Assembly: GCA_038503065.1 (NCBI GenBank)
Contig: JBCAMK010000007.1
Location: 62,001 to 126,000, forward strand
Origin: Paragyromitra xinjiangensis
Taxonomy: Eukaryota > Ascomycota > Pezizomycetes > Pezizales > Discinaceae
Direction: 5' to 3'
DNA length: 64,000 nucleotides
Shown here: piece after piece, positions 16,203 to 40,050 of the stretch
Position numbering within the stretch: the stretch's first letter is position 1
How the letters are laid out: each line of letters starts with the position of its first letter
Made by a program: the position numbers and the translations under genes
Notes under the pieces: generated by a model
What the model was told of the DNA's origin: nothing
Databases searched by the model: none
The model's input: only the letters and a program-made list of their open reading frames with translations

Positions 16203-17100
16203 TTGGGCGCAAGGAGTGATGTGGAGCTGAATTTCCGATGGAGGTCGTGGGAGCGCGTTGTGAATTACAAATGTTGAGGAGAAAAGTAACAGTACATGGA
16301 AACATATCTCTTTAATAGATTTTGAGTCGCTTCAAATTGCCAACTTGAAGGATTCAAGGCGTAAAGTCCTAGAAATGCCATGGAGACTAATTTGAACCCC
16401 TGGAATAAGTGCTAACATGATAAGCGAGAAGGTATGATCGAAATGGCTGCTTGAAAATAAATTCTCCCCGTAATAAATATTTTTGTGGTTCGGTTAGCAG
16501 ACAATTTGACAACTTAATCCATAGCCCACATGGCAAGAAGCACACGTTAGTAGCATTCTGGCGCAATAATCAGCACTTATACCGAATGTTCTTAGGCTGC
16601 GGTTACATCATTTGTGGAGTCTCTTCTAGAGCAGAATGAAGCGGGGGAGTTATGATCTAACGTAAAAACGCAAAGACTTTCGAATCCACACCAAACAGCC
16701 AGTAGTAGCTTAGGTTTCTATTCTTCCGAAGTCTCTAGATCTTCAGACATGTTGTTGCTGCTGATTGGTTCTTCTTGAATTGAGCTTTGCCTGGGGGGCT
16801 GATATAAACGATATTTTGGGGCCGACATTAGATCCCCAATTAGTAGCGTATTCAGAAACCTGGATTTGTATTTGAGCCAACTGACTGTATGTAATGACAA
16901 TTCCTAACCCCCAAAGTAATGAGATGCAAGATCATTGACATCTTGCGGCTCTACAGTTACCCTCCCTTCTCGCGAAATCTTGGCGCGCCAAGCCACGAAA
17001 AAGTCTCCTCCCACTGGAAAAGAAAAAAAGCTCCAGCAGCAGCGACAACCCACTACTATTCCATACCACCACCCCCCAATAATCAATTCACCCTCACAAA
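16203..17100. other. Intergenic, includes the NOP2 promoter side
   Basis: No gene recognised. The last 90 bases before 17101 are CA-rich and pyrimidine-rich (CCACCACCCCCCAATAATCAATTCACC just before the ATG), as is common for fungal 5' leaders. Minus ORFs 16718-17119 lack motifs. Confidence 0.5.
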
Positions 17101-19359
17101 ATGGGTCGCGGCCGTTCAAAGCTCAAGCAGGGCCCTCCTGCCCCCCTCGACGAATCCCTCATTTCCTCCCTCAAAAAACCTAATAAGCGCAAAGTGACTA
17201 CAGGCTTCGAAGACCGTGAAGAGGGTCCCACCTCCGTTGGCAAGAAGCGTCGTGCAGAGGGGGAAGAAAAACTCAAAAAGAAGAAAGAGGAGGAGTTCCG
17301 GAAGTTGAAGGCGAAAGATGCTGCTGCCAATGGGAAATCCAATGGCAAAGCAAAGCCTTCCCCGAAACCGAAGAAATCTGCTGCAAAGGTCGTAGCGAAA
17401 GCAAAACCATCGCCGAAGTCGAGTGCGCCGAAGAAAGACCTGTTTGATGATATCGATAAGATCAATGCTGCGATTGATGACTCGGAGGATGAACTTGACG
17501 GCCCACTTTCACTAAAAGACGACTTTCTTGCCAGTGGGGACTCTGATAGTGATGACGATGACGAAGTTTATGATTCTGGCGATGAGGCCTCGAAACCAAT
17601 CTTCTCAGACGATGAATTCGATTCAGATGCTGAAGAGAAACTCACTGCTGCGAACATTGAGGGTCTCTCCCATAAACTCGATTTACAACTTGCAGAAGAA
17701 GCAGCAGAAGCGCAAGCCGAATTGGAGGAGCAAGCAATGCAAACCAATATTGCCCCCGAAAAGCCTCGAATTCTTGGAGATGCCGGCGACGAATACGAGC
17801 AAATGGCAAATGCCCCACCAGATATTGCACTACTCCGAACCCGAATCACCGACACCGTCCGCGTACTAGAGGATTTTTCAAACCTCGCAGAAGAGGGCCG
17901 GTCTCGTGCAGACTACACCGAGCAAATCCTAAAAGATATTTGCGAGTACTACGGCTATTCTCCCTTCCTCGCCGAAAAACTCTTCGAGCTATTTGCCCCC
18001 TCTGAGGCGTTCTCCTTCTTCGAAGCGAACGAGAAAGAACGTCCCCTCGTAATCCGAACAAACACCCTCAAGACCGCCCGCCGAGAACTCGCACAAGCAC
18101 TAATCAACCGCGGCGTCACCCTCGAGCCTGTCGGCAAATGGTCCAAAGTTGGTCTCCAAGTCTTCGAATCCCAAGTCCCCCTCGGCGCAACCCCAGAATA
18201 CCTCGCAGGCCACTACATCCTACAAGCAGCATCTTCCTTCCTCCCCGTCATGGCTCTAGCCCCCCAAGAAAACGAACGCATCCTCGACATGGCTGCTGCC
18301 CCCGGTGGTAAAACAACATACATTTCCGCCCTCATGAAAAACACCGGCTGCGTCTTCGCCAACGATTCCAACCGCGCTCGTGCTAAGGGTCTCATCGGTA
18401 ACATCCATCGTCTCGGAGTTAAGAACACCATCGTATGCAACTACGACGCACGCGAGTTCCCTAAAGTCATTGGCGGTTTCGACCGTATTCTTCTTGACGC
18501 TCCCTGCTCTGGCACTGGTGTCATCTCGAAGGATCCCAGCGTCAAAACCAACAAGAACGAAAAGGACTTCCTGTTGCTCCCGCACCTACAGAAGCAGCTT
18601 CTTCTCGCTGCCATCGATTCCGTCGACCATGCGAGCAGCACAGGTGGCTATATCGTCTACTCTACTTGTTCCGTCACCGTTGAAGAGAACGAGTCGGTTG
18701 TCGAGTATGCCCTTCGTAAACGGCCTAATGTCAAACTTGTTGAAACGGGCCTCACATTCGGTCGTGAGGGGTTCACGTCGTATAGAGGTAAAAGGTTTAG
18801 TGAGAAGATGAAGTTCACGAGGAGGTTCTACCCGCATATGTATAACGTGGATGGATTCTTTGTCGCAAAGTTGAAGAAGATTGGGCCGACCCCGAAAGCC
18901 GGGGCAGCGGAGAAGGCAGCCGCCGAGAAGGAAGATGAGGAGATGGATGATGTGGAGGATACTGTACCTTTTGGCGGATTTGATGAGGAGGGTGATAAAG
19001 AGCTACTAGAGAAGGCGGAAATGAGGCAGAGGAAGAAGAAGGGGCTAAACCCAAAGGCCACCGCCAACGGGAAAAGTGTGGATGGAGGTGCAGCGGGAAA
19101 GGCTGCGGAAGAAAAAGATGCACCGGCAGCCGAGAAGGAGAAAGATACTACTGAAAAAACAGTCGTTGCGGAGAAGAAGCCTAGCAAGAAATCCGCCGAG
19201 AAAGCGAAGAAGGCTGCTACCCCGGATGTTGAGAAAGCTGCAGAATCCAAGGAAGCTACGAAGGAGACCACCACCACAGACAACAAGCAACAACCCCTGA
19301 AGAAATCTCCCGGCAAAGCGAACGGGAAACAGAAGGTGAAGAAGGGTAGCAAGAAATAG
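17101..19359 (+). CDS. NOP2: 25S rRNA (cytosine-C5) methyltransferase Nop2
   Basis: Nucleolar RNA m5C methyltransferase needed for 60S subunit assembly; it uses S-adenosylmethionine. Single exon, 752 aa. Residues 1-150 are Lys-rich with NLS-like stretches, followed by an acidic segment (DSDDDDEVYDSGDEA) and coiled coil. The catalytic domain spans about residues 230-600: SAM-binding DMAAAPGGKTTYIS near 395, catalytic motif DAPCSGTGVISKDPSVK near 465, and the second cysteine in YSTCSVTVEENES near 520. The RRFYPHMYNVDGFFVAKLKK motif closes the fold. The C-terminal 140 residues are Lys/Ala/Glu-rich and probably disordered, as in other fungal Nop2 proteins. The start is the first ATG after the CA-rich leader. 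Essential in yeast by general knowledge. Several long antisense ORFs inside it are shadows. Confidence 0.97.
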   Translation: MGRGRSKLKQGPPAPLDESLISSLKKPNKRKVTTGFEDREEGPTSVGKKRRAEGEEKLKKKKEEEFRKLKAKDAAANGKSNGKAKPSPKPKKSAAKVVAKAKPSPKSSAPKKDLFDDIDKINAAIDDSEDELDGPLSLKDDFLASGDSDSDDDDEVYDSGDEASKPIFSDDEFDSDAEEKLTAANIEGLSHKLDLQLAEEAAEAQAELEEQAMQTNIAPEKPRILGDAGDEYEQMANAPPDIALLRTRITDTVRVLEDFSNLAEEGRSRADYTEQILKDICEYYGYSPFLAEKLFELFAPSEAFSFFEANEKERPLVIRTNTLKTARRELAQALINRGVTLEPVGKWSKVGLQVFESQVPLGATPEYLAGHYILQAASSFLPVMALAPQENERILDMAAAPGGKTTYISALMKNTGCVFANDSNRARAKGLIGNIHRLGVKNTIVCNYDAREFPKVIGGFDRILLDAPCSGTGVISKDPSVKTNKNEKDFLLLPHLQKQLLLAAIDSVDHASSTGGYIVYSTCSVTVEENESVVEYALRKRPNVKLVETGLTFGREGFTSYRGKRFSEKMKFTRRFYPHMYNVDGFFVAKLKKIGPTPKAGAAEKAAAEKEDEEMDDVEDTVPFGGFDEEGDKELLEKAEMRQRKKKGLNPKATANGKSVDGGAAGKAAEEKDAPAAEKEKDTTEKTVVAEKKPSKKSAEKAKKAATPDVEKAAESKEATKETTTTDNKQQPLKKSPGKANGKQKVKKGSKK

Positions 19360-20432
19360 ATAATCTTTGTGGTTAAAGTATCTATTGTTTAATAGCGGTT
19401 CTCAAGAACCTTCTTTTCTTTGATTCCCTTTCGTTGATGAAGTGCATGGCTGGGAAAAGATGTTTGTACTTGTTTTCTGTACTTGATATGATATTTTTAG
19501 CTTTACTGTACAAATATATCTGGGAGACCAATAGAGTAGGAGAGTCAAGAATAGTTCCTCACCATCCGCAAGGCCTCCAAAGCTTGCGAAGAATATTAAG
19601 TTTCCCAAAGTCGACAAGGGTTGTCAATCCGGGTATGGGAAGAGCGAATCCATAAAAAGGGCCACATTTTATTGAAATATTAGATCACTAGCATGTTAAT
19701 GTGTGTCCAGCTTCCAGACGCCTATCGGTTTTAGGCTCACGAAAACACCAACACGATATTGAACCCGCTTCCTAATCTTTCTGGCCTTAGATTCGGAGGG
19801 AAGGATATTATATCAAATTTCTGGTGGCGCTGCACGAACCCTATACCATACCAGCTTTCCTATGAGTCCGGGAGTGATATCTGTGCATGTACATAGATAC
19901 CTCCCCAACTGCCCTCGCTTAACTCCTGTGTACTTCTCTAGGTGCAACATCGCATTGAACCCTCTACTCGCAAACACAGGCCAGTTGCCTATTTAGGCCA
20001 AAACTAATCTTTTAACCCTAGCCCTATAACCAGGCAAGCATTTTCTACTTCTAAATTTTTGGTACAAAGTTATAGCCACAGAGAAGATATCAATTCGAGG
20101 TATTACCGTAGGCAGAGCTACAGATATCATGGGTACAGGTGAATAGACCTGAGAGATAATCCCCGGAGGCCTTTTACACATCTTACAATTACTTGCTGAG
20201 AGGCTATCAGAGATACTGATAAAGACCTAATCTAAGATGGTCGCTACGAAGGTAGCTGGGGATCGGCTTATGAGTCAAGTCTTGGCATCCTTCGCGGCTA
20301 GGTAATAACCCTTGTCTTGGCGCTGATTCAGCCATCGAAGGAGCACTTTCCTCTTTCCTCGCTTAGCCACCCACTTCCAACCTCCATCCACCATACCGCT
20401 TCTGAACTACCGCCATCTCCCACGGCACCACT
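19360..20432. other. Intergenic
   Basis: Downstream of NOP2 and upstream of the gene at 20433. Short ORFs only; nothing recognised. Confidence 0.5.
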
Positions 20433-23289
20433 ATGGTCAATCCTAAACCTAAGGTACGTCTGCTTGCGTTCTTTGCTTTGATTCAACTTTATTGTACTGA
20501 TGTACGAGCTAGGTTCCTTCATACTTCAGGACATCCCCTCCCTCGAAATGGGACATCTGCGACTATCCAGACGCAGAATTCAACCGCAGAGGCACTATCC
20601 ACTTCGACTTCGGCACGGCTACTAGCAACTGGACTGCAACGATTCTACACTTTTCAAGTTATGGTGAAGGGGACCAAAAAACTGTGTCGGTGCAGAAGCT
20701 TGAACACTACAGGGGTTGTCCGGTATGTCTTCGCATTTTCCGAGCGTCGCTTTGTTACATCGCTGGCCCTACCCTGGTAGCCTATATGATAGATATTCTT
20801 CAGTCTTTCGATACTCAGCTCAGTTCACCAGGCTACAGGTACCCTTCGGGTTATCTGAGTCCTGGCCTGGTGAGCCCATGGTAACCTTCGGGTTTTTTGA
20901 CTCTGATTCAGGCTTACCGGGCTACAAATACCCTTCGGGTTATTTGAGACCTGGCCCGGTAGTCCTATGGCAACCTTCAGGTTTAAATCTCATAATAGGC
21001 TACAGATACCCTTCGGGTTATTTGAGACCTGGCCTAGTATGGGTCCATAGTAACCTTCGGGTTTTGATCTTAGACATAGGCTTCCTGGGCTACAAGTACC
21101 CTTCGGGTTATTTGAGACCTAGCCCGGTAGTCCCATGGTAACCTTCCGGTTAGGAGCACCCCCCCGGGCTACAGATAACCTTCGGGTTATCTGAGACCTG
21201 GCCCGGTGGGCCGATGATAACCTCCGGGTTTTAAGTCTTACACCGGACTACAACCACCCTTCGGGTTGGTTGAGTCCCGTCCGGTAGTCTGATAGTGGCT
21301 TTCGGAACATTTCATCTCAGACTCAGACTTAGATTCACCGGGCTACAAATACCCTTCGGGTTATTTGAGACCTGGCCCGGTGGTCTCATCGTGTTGTTGA
21401 GTTCCTGACTTAATCTAATAGCTTTCCTAAACCTTAATACATTGTCCAACCCACTAAATAACCTGGAATTTTCTGATTACTAACTTAATTGGATTGGCAA
21501 TCCAATCCCGCCAACGCTTAGGGAGACCTATCGGACAAGACTCGCGCTAGGAACTGGCGGAATAACAAAACCAAAAAGAAACGAAATATTTCCGCACCGC
21601 CACAACCCTCAGAGGTTCCACCCCAGCCTTCGGCGATCCCACAGCAAGTCAACTATTACGCGCCAGTCAACCAAGTCGTCAACGGTAGCTTCGACAATTC
21701 ACCTGTGAATTTCAACGGGAACGAATCTGAAGGTGTAAGTCTTGTGTCATCCTGATTTTGTCTTTCCCAAGGTTGAAGTTAGTCCATGTTAGGCTGTCGG
21801 TGCTTCTGCTTGCAATGTGGGGTAATTTCGGATTAATATTTAGTCACCATTGCTTGTCGCTAACAAATATAGTGAAATTGTGGATGAGCACCCACAAGAT
21901 GCCGCCGTTGTACCTGAACTAAAACCAGACGAACCAGACAAACTAGACGCTGAAGGAAAAAGGTTAATTCTTCTCTGCAAATCGTTCCAAAAGCTCCGGA
22001 AAACCATGACTACCACGTTCCCACTCCCTAGTGGCGGCAATTTGGAAGACTGTCTGGCTAAGTACATCGAGGGGTTGAGCCACGTAGACCCTGCACATGC
22101 TTTCATTGTCGATAAGAAAATGCTTTCAACATTACCGACGGGGGACAAGCAGCAGGTGCTAAGTCAATTGCAGCCTTTGCCAGCATTCCCTGAAGGACTC
22201 GAGAAAGTCCTCGCGAAATATAAAAAGGTGCCCACCCCGCTACCTTTTACCAAAACGCTAGACTCACCCCATGATAGGTCACTACACTTGCTCAATGCAG
22301 AAAAGCTAGTCGAAAGGTTACTAAGTCATGTCAAGACGAAGACATACACTAGATCACCCGGGTCTTTGAGCAAATGTTAGCTGCTTCTATCAGACTATCT
22401 ACCGATTTCTGTGATTCAGGTTTAACGGAGACATGGCGTGACTACTTACAGGGCACGACTAATCGACAATGGGTACATGTCATTTAACCTTGGAGAGGGA
22501 GTGTTTGATACCCTTGTCAATTCTGTTTTGTGGGATTACTACTTCCTCGATATCCCAGAAATGATACTTAAACGGTATGCACCACCTGATCTTTCCGGTG
22601 CATCTCGCACTAGTATCACTAATTTGAAACATTCTAGGAAAGAAATCACACTCTCAGCCATGGGCGACGAGCCATACAAGTACCTTGGTTACAATCCACA
22701 CTTCACAGGAATTCTCCGAACACGTGTACACGGGCAAGATTGCTCCTACGAGCTTGCTCTATTCGAAGTGTCAGGTAACCACGGCAAAAACGAGACAAAG
22801 AAATCGGTTAAGGACCGCACAAAACTAATCGCCGGCTGTCGTGCAATGCTGTATCGTCTCCAGGAACTTGTGAACAACGATGAACATATAATCCCGAAAC
22901 TACGCGTGGTTGGAATAATGCAAGAAGGTAAGCCGCTTTAGAGTTATTCCACTCCAACATCGTCTAATAGCCACGCGCCTCGAATAAACCAGGTCTTCGC
23001 ACTCAGTTGTTTATCATGTCATCAATCAATAGCAATGTATTTCATCTGAAAGCTGGTTACGGGCGAAATTTACCTAGCACCTATACATCCCTTGACCACG
23101 TCTCTAATGTGATTACTCTTGCTTGGAAGGCTAAGGTTCGTGTCGACCCATATCTTTCCCTCTTGATACTCATATCTTACATTCCATCAGAGAATTGTCA
23201 TGGATACTGCAGCTGTTGTTAAAAAGTATCTCAAGGATGCCGAGTTAAATGATTGTCGTGCAGACAGGACCGATCCTGATTGGTGCTAA
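20433..23289 (+). CDS. Multi-exon protein of unknown function, probably frameshifted
   Basis: Not assigned to a named family. Model: 20433-20453, 20513-20722, 21522-21734, 21844-22308, 22353-about 22480, then 22927 by way of the frame open from 22438, 22993-23135 and 23191-23289. Exons 1-4 and the last three join in frame with clean signals (59-, 799-, 109-, 65- and 55-nt introns). The intron 22309-22352 has a weak donor. Near 22480 the frame reading LTETWRDYLQGTTNRQW must shift to the one reading NLGEGVFDTLVNSVLWDYYF. No good intron does this; a 2-nt loss in a T run would. The C-terminal part, with YELALFEVSGNHGKN, then KDRTKLIAGCRAMLYRL, then LRVVGIMQEG, resembles fungal proteins with a PD-(D/E)XK nuclease-like core, but that is tentative. 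Exon 3 is Pro/Gln/Asn-rich linker. Confidence 0.6.
20826..21382 (+). repeat. Seven tandem UUCG-capped hairpin repeats inside an intron
   Basis: Seven copies spaced about 77-95 bp, at about 20826-20872, 20915-20961, 20996-21036, 21083-21129, 21158-21208, 21241-21286 and 21336-21382. Each is a nested palindrome: an outer GC-rich stem (CACCGGGC with GCCCGGTG), a CTA/GAG(A)CCTG internal loop, and an inner stem such as CAAATA.CC with GG.TATTTG capped by TTCG. Between them lie short hairpins of the form AACC-NNNN-GGTT (near 20883, 20972, 21052, 21139, 21219). The arms vary together between copies. All lie in the 799-nt intron 20723-21521 of the surrounding gene. Confidence 0.85.
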
Positions 23290-38156: not shown

Positions 38157-38302
38157 ATTCACCAAATGCATCCTGAAGAAGGCTTCCCCACAGCATTCAC
38201 CGAACACGTCCTGTTGAAGGCCTTCACGCAGCATTCACCGAATATGCTTTGATGAAGGTCTTCACGCAGCATTCACCAAACACATCTCAAAGAATCTTCC
38301 AT
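38157..38302. repeat. 38-bp tandem repeat, about four copies
   Basis: Copies start at 38157, 38195, 38233 and 38271, an exact 38-bp period. The unit begins ATTCACCGAACACGTCCTGT and ends CCTTCACGCAGC; copies 2 and 3 are closest. The period is not a multiple of three, so a coding role in one frame is unlikely. Confidence 0.85.
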
Positions 38303-38699: not shown

Positions 38700-40050
38700 A
38701 ACCCGTTGAGAGGGATCATTGCGAACTTAGATCTGCGAATTGGCATTCTGCTAGTGGTGTCTATCATCCCCTCCGAGTACGTGGCGGAGATAAGATCATG
38801 GAGATCTTATCACGATTTAGTCGAGTCTTTCAGCAATCCAAACGACTATTTAATAGAGTACGTCGCGGAGAAAAGATCATTACGATCTTGATGGATTCGA
38901 AGTTCAGACGGGCGACGTTACCGGTATCCGAACTTGCCAGGAGATCCATTTAACGAGAGCATGTCGCGGAGAAAAGATCATTACGATCGTAGCACTCTGT
39001 CGACTGGAATTACCAGTATCCAGGATTGCCAGAAACTCCATTCAACGGAACACGTCGCGGAGAAAAGATCCATTGGGATCTCAACCGTCTTCAGGTGGAT
39101 GGAATTGTACCGGTCCTTCTGTCTTCCGAAAACTATCCGTTTAAGAAGAATCATTAAGGTTTCTTTCTTCTAGCGGTTTGGAATTCTACCTCTACTACAG
39201 GATGAAAATCCATTCAACGGAGTACGTCGCGGAGAAAAGATCATTACGATCGCAGCACTCTTCGGTCAACTGGAATTACCAGTATCCAGGATTGCCGGAA
39301 AATTTATTCAACGGAGTACGTCGCGGAGAAAAGATCATTACGATCGTAGCGCTCTTCGGTTGACTGGGTTTACTAAGTATCCAGGATTGCCAGAAACTCC
39401 ATTCAACAGAGCACGTCGCGGAGAAAAGATCCATTGGGATGTCAACCGTTTTCAAGCAACCGGCATTGTACCGGTCCTTCTGCCTTCCGAAAACTATCCA
39501 TTTAAGAAGTATCATTAAGGTCTCTTTCTTCTAGTGGTTTGGAATTATACCTCTACTACAGGATGGCAGCCATATATTCTATCGAGTATGTCGCGGAGAA
39601 AAAAGATCATTAATATACTATCACCACTCAGTCAACCATGGCATTGTACCAGTCCCTCTGGCTTCCGATTACCCGTTCAATAAAAACGATTTGACTGTCG
39701 TCTATTCCATCGAGCATTTCGCGGAGATAAAGATCATTAAGATGCTATCAGTATCCAGCCAACTGGGATTGTACCAGTCTATCTTCCTCCTGAAAATCAT
39801 CCATTCGGGAAAAAACATTACGATCCTATCCCTCTAGCGGTTGGCATTCTACAGTTTCAACTCCGCCTATTCTATCCGAGCGTGACGCAGGTGTTATTGA
39901 AACGATGCCACCTGCCTTCCCAATGGCCCTCCAAGGAGAATCATTACGATTCAATCGCTCTGATTTTTGGCATTCTGCCTGGTTGTCTGTCCTTCCCTCG
40001 CCATCCATACTATTGAGTATGTCGCGGAGGTAAGATCATTATGATCGTAT
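38700..40050. repeat. Degenerate minisatellite with a GTCGCGGAGAAAAGATC core
   Basis: The core GTCGCGGAG(A)AAAAGATCATTACGATC or a variant recurs at 38781, 38862, 38963, 39054, 39226, 39320, 39415, 39590, 39719 and 40021. Simple spacings are about 81-101 bp, with longer 172-175 bp units. The segment 38963-39203 is repeated at about 39320-39563 (offset near 360 bp), a higher-order duplication. Each unit also has a small palindrome around CTGGAATTACCAG. No frame stays open through the array, so it looks non-coding. Confidence 0.82.

Follow-up and report, generated by a model that had tools for sequence, protein, structure and literature searches.

Fungal introns are usually short and are treated as inert. 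Some are structured, e.g. the autoregulatory introns of yeast ribosomal-protein genes, whose structure influences splicing, and the introns with fungal thiamine pyrophosphate (TPP) riboswitches, whose RNA can control splicing. Introner-like elements, which spread new introns into many genes, give fungal introns with stable secondary structure, and double-hairpin elements and GC-rich palindromes are known from fungal mitochondrial genomes. In this work we describe a tandem array of hairpins inside a predicted intron of the fungus Paragyromitra xinjiangensis, together with the corresponding introns of its paralogues. The array lies in a 64,000-nucleotide (nt) stretch of contig JBCAMK010000007.1 (positions 62,001 to 126,000), which we call the window and whose numbering is used for all positions given without a contig name. 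Hairpins of similar build but differing sequence in the corresponding intron of the family suggest that the intron RNA has a job. The explanation that we favour, at somewhat less than an even chance, is that the array represents a lineage-specific RNA element, carried in an intron by a multigene family, which would control its own gene in trans.

This locus resembles the described systems in part. It shares with the TPP riboswitch introns the presence of structured RNA in an intron, but its hairpins are repeated and match no Rfam family. Like the introner-like elements it shows stable secondary structure in a fungal intron, but here one intron position is common to one family. The mitochondrial double-hairpin elements are also short stem-loop modules in fungi, whereas the hairpins studied here sit on large contigs, in one intron of a gene family, and those of their sequences that we tested are not dispersed. 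Yeast spliceosomal introns with structure that influences splicing are outlined in PMC9508853. Our array likewise consists of stem-loops in a spliceosomal intron and may likewise regulate splicing; in contrast, its hairpins are modular and repeated over a gene family, their sequence is locus-specific and the path through the intron is not shortened. The ToxI RNA repeats of type III toxin-antitoxin systems, as outlined in PMC8860590, are bacterial, form pseudoknots and accompany an endoribonuclease toxin, which cuts them. In both cases repeated structured RNA is tied to one protein gene and varies between loci, but the repeats described here lie inside an intron and not upstream, were modelled as nested stem-loops only, and belong to a gene with no toxin domain match. 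In the open-access literature that we searched, no title or abstract beginning describes hairpin arrays of this kind in the intron of a gene family.

Results

The hairpin array in the window

A sequence-only reading of the window had proposed seven tandem hairpin units at 20826..21382, within an intron of about 800 nt. Both proposals were borne out: the units are present at these positions, and splice-site consensus together with the corresponding position in paralogues predicts an intron of 799 nt around them.

20723..21521, + strand: predicted intron 2, 799 nt, phase 0, which houses the array (GTATGT donor, TACTAAC at 21478-21484, TTAG acceptor; paralogue position)
20826..20872, + strand: unit 1 main hairpin, stem CACCAGGC/GCCTGGTG (alignment, pair count)
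20873..20914, + strand: spacer after unit 1, with a small second hairpin, for example AACC-TTCG-GGTT (read in the sequence)
20915..20961, + strand: unit 2 main hairpin (alignment, pair count)
20993..21039, + strand: unit 3 main hairpin (alignment, pair count)
21083..21129, + strand: unit 4 main hairpin (alignment, pair count)
21162..21208, + strand: unit 5 main hairpin (alignment, pair count, covariance-model match)
21241..21286, + strand: unit 6 main hairpin, the most diverged of the seven (alignment, pair count)
21336..21382, + strand: unit 7 main hairpin (alignment, pair count)

Each hairpin measures 47 nt (46 nt in unit 6), and the array as a whole is a tandem repeat of 79 bp x 6.6 copies. 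From 5′ to 3′ a unit is built of an outer 8-bp stem, a 2-nt side (TA), an inner stem of 6 + 2 bp around TTCG and a 7-nt 3′ side of the internal loop (AGACCTG or similar), after which the outer stem closes. The stem pairs quoted earlier can all be found in the sequence, the outermost pair of unit 6 being a C.A mismatch. The covariation that had been suspected also survives a formal count: in register, 108 of the 112 base-pair cells pair, with one gap of unit 6 shifted by hand into the internal loop, and 7 of the 16 pairs are compensatory, i.e. changed on both sides. Neither value was reached in 2000 shuffles (0/2000 each), and the unedited MAFFT alignment of the seven units gives 93.7% paired (0/500 shuffles) and 6 compensatory pairs (1/500); all of these shuffle statistics ignore the relatedness of the copies.

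The statement that every loop is TTCG holds for the sequence of all seven main hairpins; in several of them, however, the loop of the folded model has three nt, UUC. UUCG is moreover not the essential feature, because other family members use other loops in their introns. The small second hairpin between units carries TTCG, TTCA, TTCG, TTCC or TCCG in units 1-5, is similar to the unit 1 example in units 2-5 and is absent as a fold in unit 6. The 5′ arm of each unit could alternatively pair with the 3′ side of the internal loop (46/49 cells), and a unit may thus be bistable; this alternative pairing is no better than in shuffles (158/500 for cells paired).

The corresponding intron in the gene family

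Guided by splice sites and flanking exons, we manually placed the corresponding intron, which follows the N-terminal exon, in 23 members: C7w (the window copy), C3, C16, C22a, C22b, C11a, C11b, C11c, C12, C7b, C18a, C18b, C10, C15, C14, C13, C6a, C6b, C5, C9, C1, C21 and C4. The family itself is evident from the exons: exon 5 of the window gene has 14 genome matches, while exon 5 of a paralogue has 17, exon 4 has 4 and a paralogue's exon 2 has 9 at E-values up to 1. Many members begin exon 3 with a stretch like G-R-x-S-D-R-x-R-A-x-x-W, judged by eye, which is weak in C13, C6a, C6b, C9 and C4.

The introns range from 172 to 1730 nt. Stem-loops can be read in every one of the 23; they differ in sequence and are often arranged in tandem. 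Taken together, the introns are more stably folded than their shuffled versions: their mean local-fold z-score is -2.37 (14 below -2, 8 below -3), compared with 0.01 (2 below -2, 1 below -3) in 22 control loci, which are chance matches of a pattern search and not random draws, and with +0.73 (1 below -2) in 22 downstream flanks of the same genes. Leaving out C13, C6a and C6b gives a mean of -2.33, and seven introns (C12, C18b, C6b, C5, C9, C4 and C11c) lie above -1. Watson-Crick helices of at least 7 bp number 45 in the introns vs 20.1 in shuffles; in 23 flanks the corresponding figures are 20 and 24.0.

A common inner hairpin

An inner hairpin of approximately the form CAGAYGACC-NNNNN-GGTYGTCTG can be aligned over 14 copies from 10 members. 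Both sides have changed at 6 of its 9 pairs (1/500 shuffles), 89.7% of the alignment is paired and the covariation score is 0.453 (0/500 shuffles each), although these 14 seed hairpins were chosen because they pair. The outer stems, which were not used in selecting the matches, pair better with their own partner than with the partners of other members (16/3000 permutations; 32 units from 14 members): 6 of the 32 score at least 14 with their own partner, against 6.8% across members.

A covariance model built from these 10 members, which do not include the window copy, matches the inner hairpin of window unit 5 (21172-21193) with an E-value of 0.0015 in the whole window and 0.0017 in the locus search. 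Among the other held-out introns the same model finds C4 (E 0.029), C5 (0.18) and C22b (0.57 and 0.59), and altogether 4 of 13 held-out members have a match at E<1. The search covered 24 loci, those for C12 and C22a holding part of the intron. Outside the introns of the held-out loci there was no match at E<1 except an antisense copy at the window site; elsewhere in the window there was one (E 0.5). A model built from the window units alone proved too sequence-specific, its best matches beyond the array having E-values of 0.14, 0.22 and 0.31; these correspond to the sense strand of the introns of C11b, C11a and C13, respectively. A motif count anchored on one arm was uneven, with no match in 9 of the 23 introns.

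Between the inner and outer stem, on the 3′ side of the internal loop, a pyrimidine stretch (TTCTCT or CTCTCT) recurs in C3, C22a, C22b and C14. It is a possible protein-binding motif.

Distribution in the genome

DNA searches of the 48-Mb genome found the window array nowhere else and gave no link to any other family member. The sequence-only reading had named a lack of other copies or of conserved structure in relatives as evidence against it; copies of the sequence are indeed lacking, but the structure recurs in paralogues. The pattern GAYGASCNNNNNGCTYRTC gave 20 rows, representing 18 distinct places in 48 Mb, compared with 8 rows for the reversed control. Thirteen of these places fall in introns of six members (C10, C11b, C14, C15, C18a and C18b), one in what looks like a degenerate copy of the C10 intron (C10:55739) and four elsewhere; as the pattern was derived from these same members, the result shows a lack of dispersal of the motif but is no successful prediction of it. 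An outer-stem pattern, GAGCCAGCGCTGGTCCC, gave a less clear picture: it was found with up to 2 mismatches at 9 places (control 1+0), of which three lie in family introns (C7b, C21 and C11b). The six outside the placed introns (C5:925051, C5:2357208, C10:786407, C15:1008141, C19:42715 and C22:554575) may be chance matches or further family members. A dispersed hairpin or mobile element, e.g. a double-hairpin element, a miniature inverted-repeat transposable element or an introner, was rejected, since the window array is confined to a single locus and GAYGASCNNNNNGCTYRTC occurs mostly in family introns.

At C10:55739, 2 kb away from the parent intron, lies what looks like a partial copy of the C10 family gene in decay, with most of its hairpin intron still present. 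Thirteen of the 23 members (C11a, C5, C15, C9, C22b, C22a, C4, C21, C10, C11c, C6a, C6b and the window copy) are located no more than 110 kb from a contig end, a zone that makes up about 10% of the assembly. The 7-bp telomeric repeat CCCTAAA/TTTAGGG, which is the plant-type repeat, stands at 5 of 9 inspected contig ends (C7, C22, C6, C11 (start) and C21 (end)), and a contig end is thus not always a telomere. A literature search brought up nothing on this repeat.

The host gene and its surroundings

The predicted exons of the gene that hosts the array, and its first intron, are as follows.

20433..20453, + strand: predicted exon 1, ATG GTC AAT CCT AAA CCT AAG (splice-site consensus only)
20454..20512, + strand: predicted intron 1, 59 nt, GTACGT ... 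TACTGAT ... TAG (read in the sequence)
20513..20722, + strand: predicted exon 2, N-terminal domain of 70 amino acids (open frame)
21522..21734, + strand: predicted exon 3, starting G-D-L-S-D-K-T-R-A-R-N-W (read by eye)
21844..22377, + strand: predicted exon 4, open frame of 178 amino acids (no Pfam match)
22426..22938, + strand: predicted exon 5, open frame of 171 amino acids, the core common to paralogues (no Pfam match)

Exons 20433-20453, 20513-20722, 21522-21734 and 21844-22377 form an open phase-0 path. Frames weakly similar to exon 2 lie 5′ of the intron in some paralogues, the best E-values being 2.8e-4 (C18a), 0.003 (C18b) and 0.004 (C16), and the start of exon 3 compares by eye with G-R-x-S-D-R-x-R-A-x-x-W in several. 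There is no clean splice between exons 4 and 5, and the paralogue-like stretch seemingly continues in another frame (21844-22938). The window copy may therefore be degenerate, its exon 4/5 junction possibly being frameshifted.

Homologues of the host protein outside this genome were sought twice: the spliced window model gave 7953 candidates, none at E<=0.001, and an alignment of four member proteins gave 6386, none at E<=0.01. Nothing in Pfam came near the cut-offs, the PDB sequences gave one match (E 0.16), and an AlphaFold model of exon 5 alone had a mean predicted local distance difference test score of 38 and was unusable. Rfam (release 15) gave 0 matches at the gathering score in the loci of 15 of the 23 members, two of these loci containing the intron in part, and 0 with an E-value of 1 or less in window positions 19000-23000.

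The product of the Nop2 gene next to it (17083-19359) shares 97% identity with a database protein and 77% with two proteins of Morchella, which makes a Pezizomycete close to the morels the most likely source. The window contains two further tandem repeats, at 39204-39431 (94 bp x 2.4) and 38157-38283 (38 bp x 3.4); no tRNAs were found in it, nor any match to a phage collection.

Discussion

What might such an intron do? We propose that it takes part in trans-acting regulation of the splicing or processing of its own gene, because modular hairpins suit repeated binding sites better than a device that brings the splice sites together. An RNA-binding protein that acts in trans, and that is perhaps encoded by the family itself, would dock on the repeated hairpins, either in the pre-mRNA or in the intron after its excision. 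How fully these sites are occupied could set the share of transcript that is spliced to full length as opposed to intron-retained and truncated, and the outcome would be control of the dosage or the isoforms of a gene family that evolves fast. Tandem amplification within the intron would add sites, and selection for structure would keep the stems paired despite drift. The regulatory role of the hairpins is something that we infer; the host protein has no relative outside the genome in either search and no known domain.

Several results weigh against this reading. Nine of the 23 introns do not attain a z-score of -2, and C12, which has the longest array, reaches only 0.19. The 12 members found first average -2.97 and the 11 later ones -1.71. 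No perfect 7-bp helix occurs in C16, C10, C6b, C9 or C4. The inner-hairpin model has no match at E<1 in 9 of 13 held-out members, and two in the 22 control loci (E 0.031 and 0.43). Protein matches are weak for exon 2 of C13 (E 0.0026), C6a (0.032) and C6b (0.044) and for exon 5 of C5 (0.005) and C21 (0.007), and accepting such members partly on the resemblance of their introns is circular. The strand tests, too, are weak and the sense-strand signal is modest. Of the 23 introns, 15 fold better on the sense than on the antisense strand (p 0.033, Wilcoxon test), the sense-minus-antisense z-difference being -2 or lower in 5 introns and +2 or higher in none. A strand-symmetric helix search gives a G-U to A-C ratio of 160 to 73 in the introns and 121 to 117 in the flanks, but base composition explains most of the G-U excess (0.687 observed vs 0.626 shuffled, 2/60), and without C12 and C22a it is not significant (15/60 shuffles).

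The sequence-only reading had offered two causes for the paired changes, selection for structure and a copying process that repairs palindromes. The second would make these introns palindromic minisatellites, in which unequal exchange produces the copies, hairpin-templated (quasi-palindrome) replication correction keeps the arms complementary and the RNA has no function. We regard this as rather unlikely, but given the modest strand signal it stays as a rival. Tandem Repeats Finder, applied to 12 members, reports arrays of period 51-79 in 8 of them (period x copies: C3 65 x 9, C16 71 x 6.7, C22b 51 x 5.8, C11a 51 x 2.9, C12 71 x 16.6, C22a 71 x 6.5, C7b 62 x 3.2 and C7w 79 x 6.6), while the 22 control loci (66 kb) hold no tandem array of period >=45, i.e. 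of at least 45. The 806-nt array stretch of the window folds equally well on both strands (z -5.54 on the + strand and -5.53 on the - strand; 20 shuffles each), and the loss of significance of the G-U excess without two introns also speaks for this rival. Pairing within arrays exceeds shuffles in C16 (3/300), C22b (1/300) and C18a (2/300), besides C7w, but not clearly in the other six of these nine further arrays: C3 (29/300), C4 (19), C22a (134), C15 (167), C12 (286) and C6a (300).

Head-to-tail copies in one intron are thus present, as in an intronic minisatellite, but this is not sufficient, as other members have single, non-tandem hairpins. A similar hairpin with an asymmetric internal loop recurs in the corresponding intron of diverged members even where it is not in tandem (C11b, C14 and C21), the downstream flanks of the same genes show no excess folding, and the sense strand is favoured overall. 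Diverged paralogues therefore keep similarly built hairpins with compensatory changes in the corresponding intron, which supports the first of the two causes and weighs against the second. Selection on the sense strand at the level of RNA is favoured, not proven.

It is improbable, in our judgement, that the excised or retained intron is a trans-acting RNA antidote, which would bind and neutralise the encoded protein in the manner of type III toxin-antitoxin repeat RNA. The analogy draws on locus-specific structured RNA repeats within the gene of an uncharacterised protein, and on a family with many diverged copies and an enrichment near contig ends. However, neither Pfam nor the PDB yields a toxin or nuclease domain, the structure model of exon 5 is unusable, and the system is eukaryotic and intronic. 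By the same analogy, the fast-rewritten but structurally conserved intronic repeat of each copy might bind and restrain the protein of that very gene, as a control or poison-antidote module. This would be a long shot, and we know of no described eukaryotic counterpart of such a self-contained module of a protein and its intronic RNA.

Nor is it probable that members of the family are silenced by small RNAs cut from these hairpins, as precursors of the mirtron type or as Dicer substrates. Many stem-loops lie in a presumably transcribed intron, and a multigene family is a natural target, but the stems are short and interrupted, and with no genome match to the window array elsewhere the silencing of other members is unlikely.

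Finally, that the hairpins merely shorten the effective distance between splice signals in long introns, as structure does for the branch point-acceptor distance in yeasts according to the outline in PMC9508853, is very improbable and was rejected, because the predicted folds give a longer donor-acceptor path than shuffled introns have (1.38 times on average; below the shuffled mean in only 8 of 23) and short introns of 172-350 nt bear hairpins too.

At one intron position of a multigene family, structured RNA seems to persist while sequence and copy number turn over, and the paralogues within this single genome amount to a natural covariation experiment. If a protein reads the hairpins, the two would form a new pair of RNA and protein, with a specificity that may co-evolve separately at each locus.

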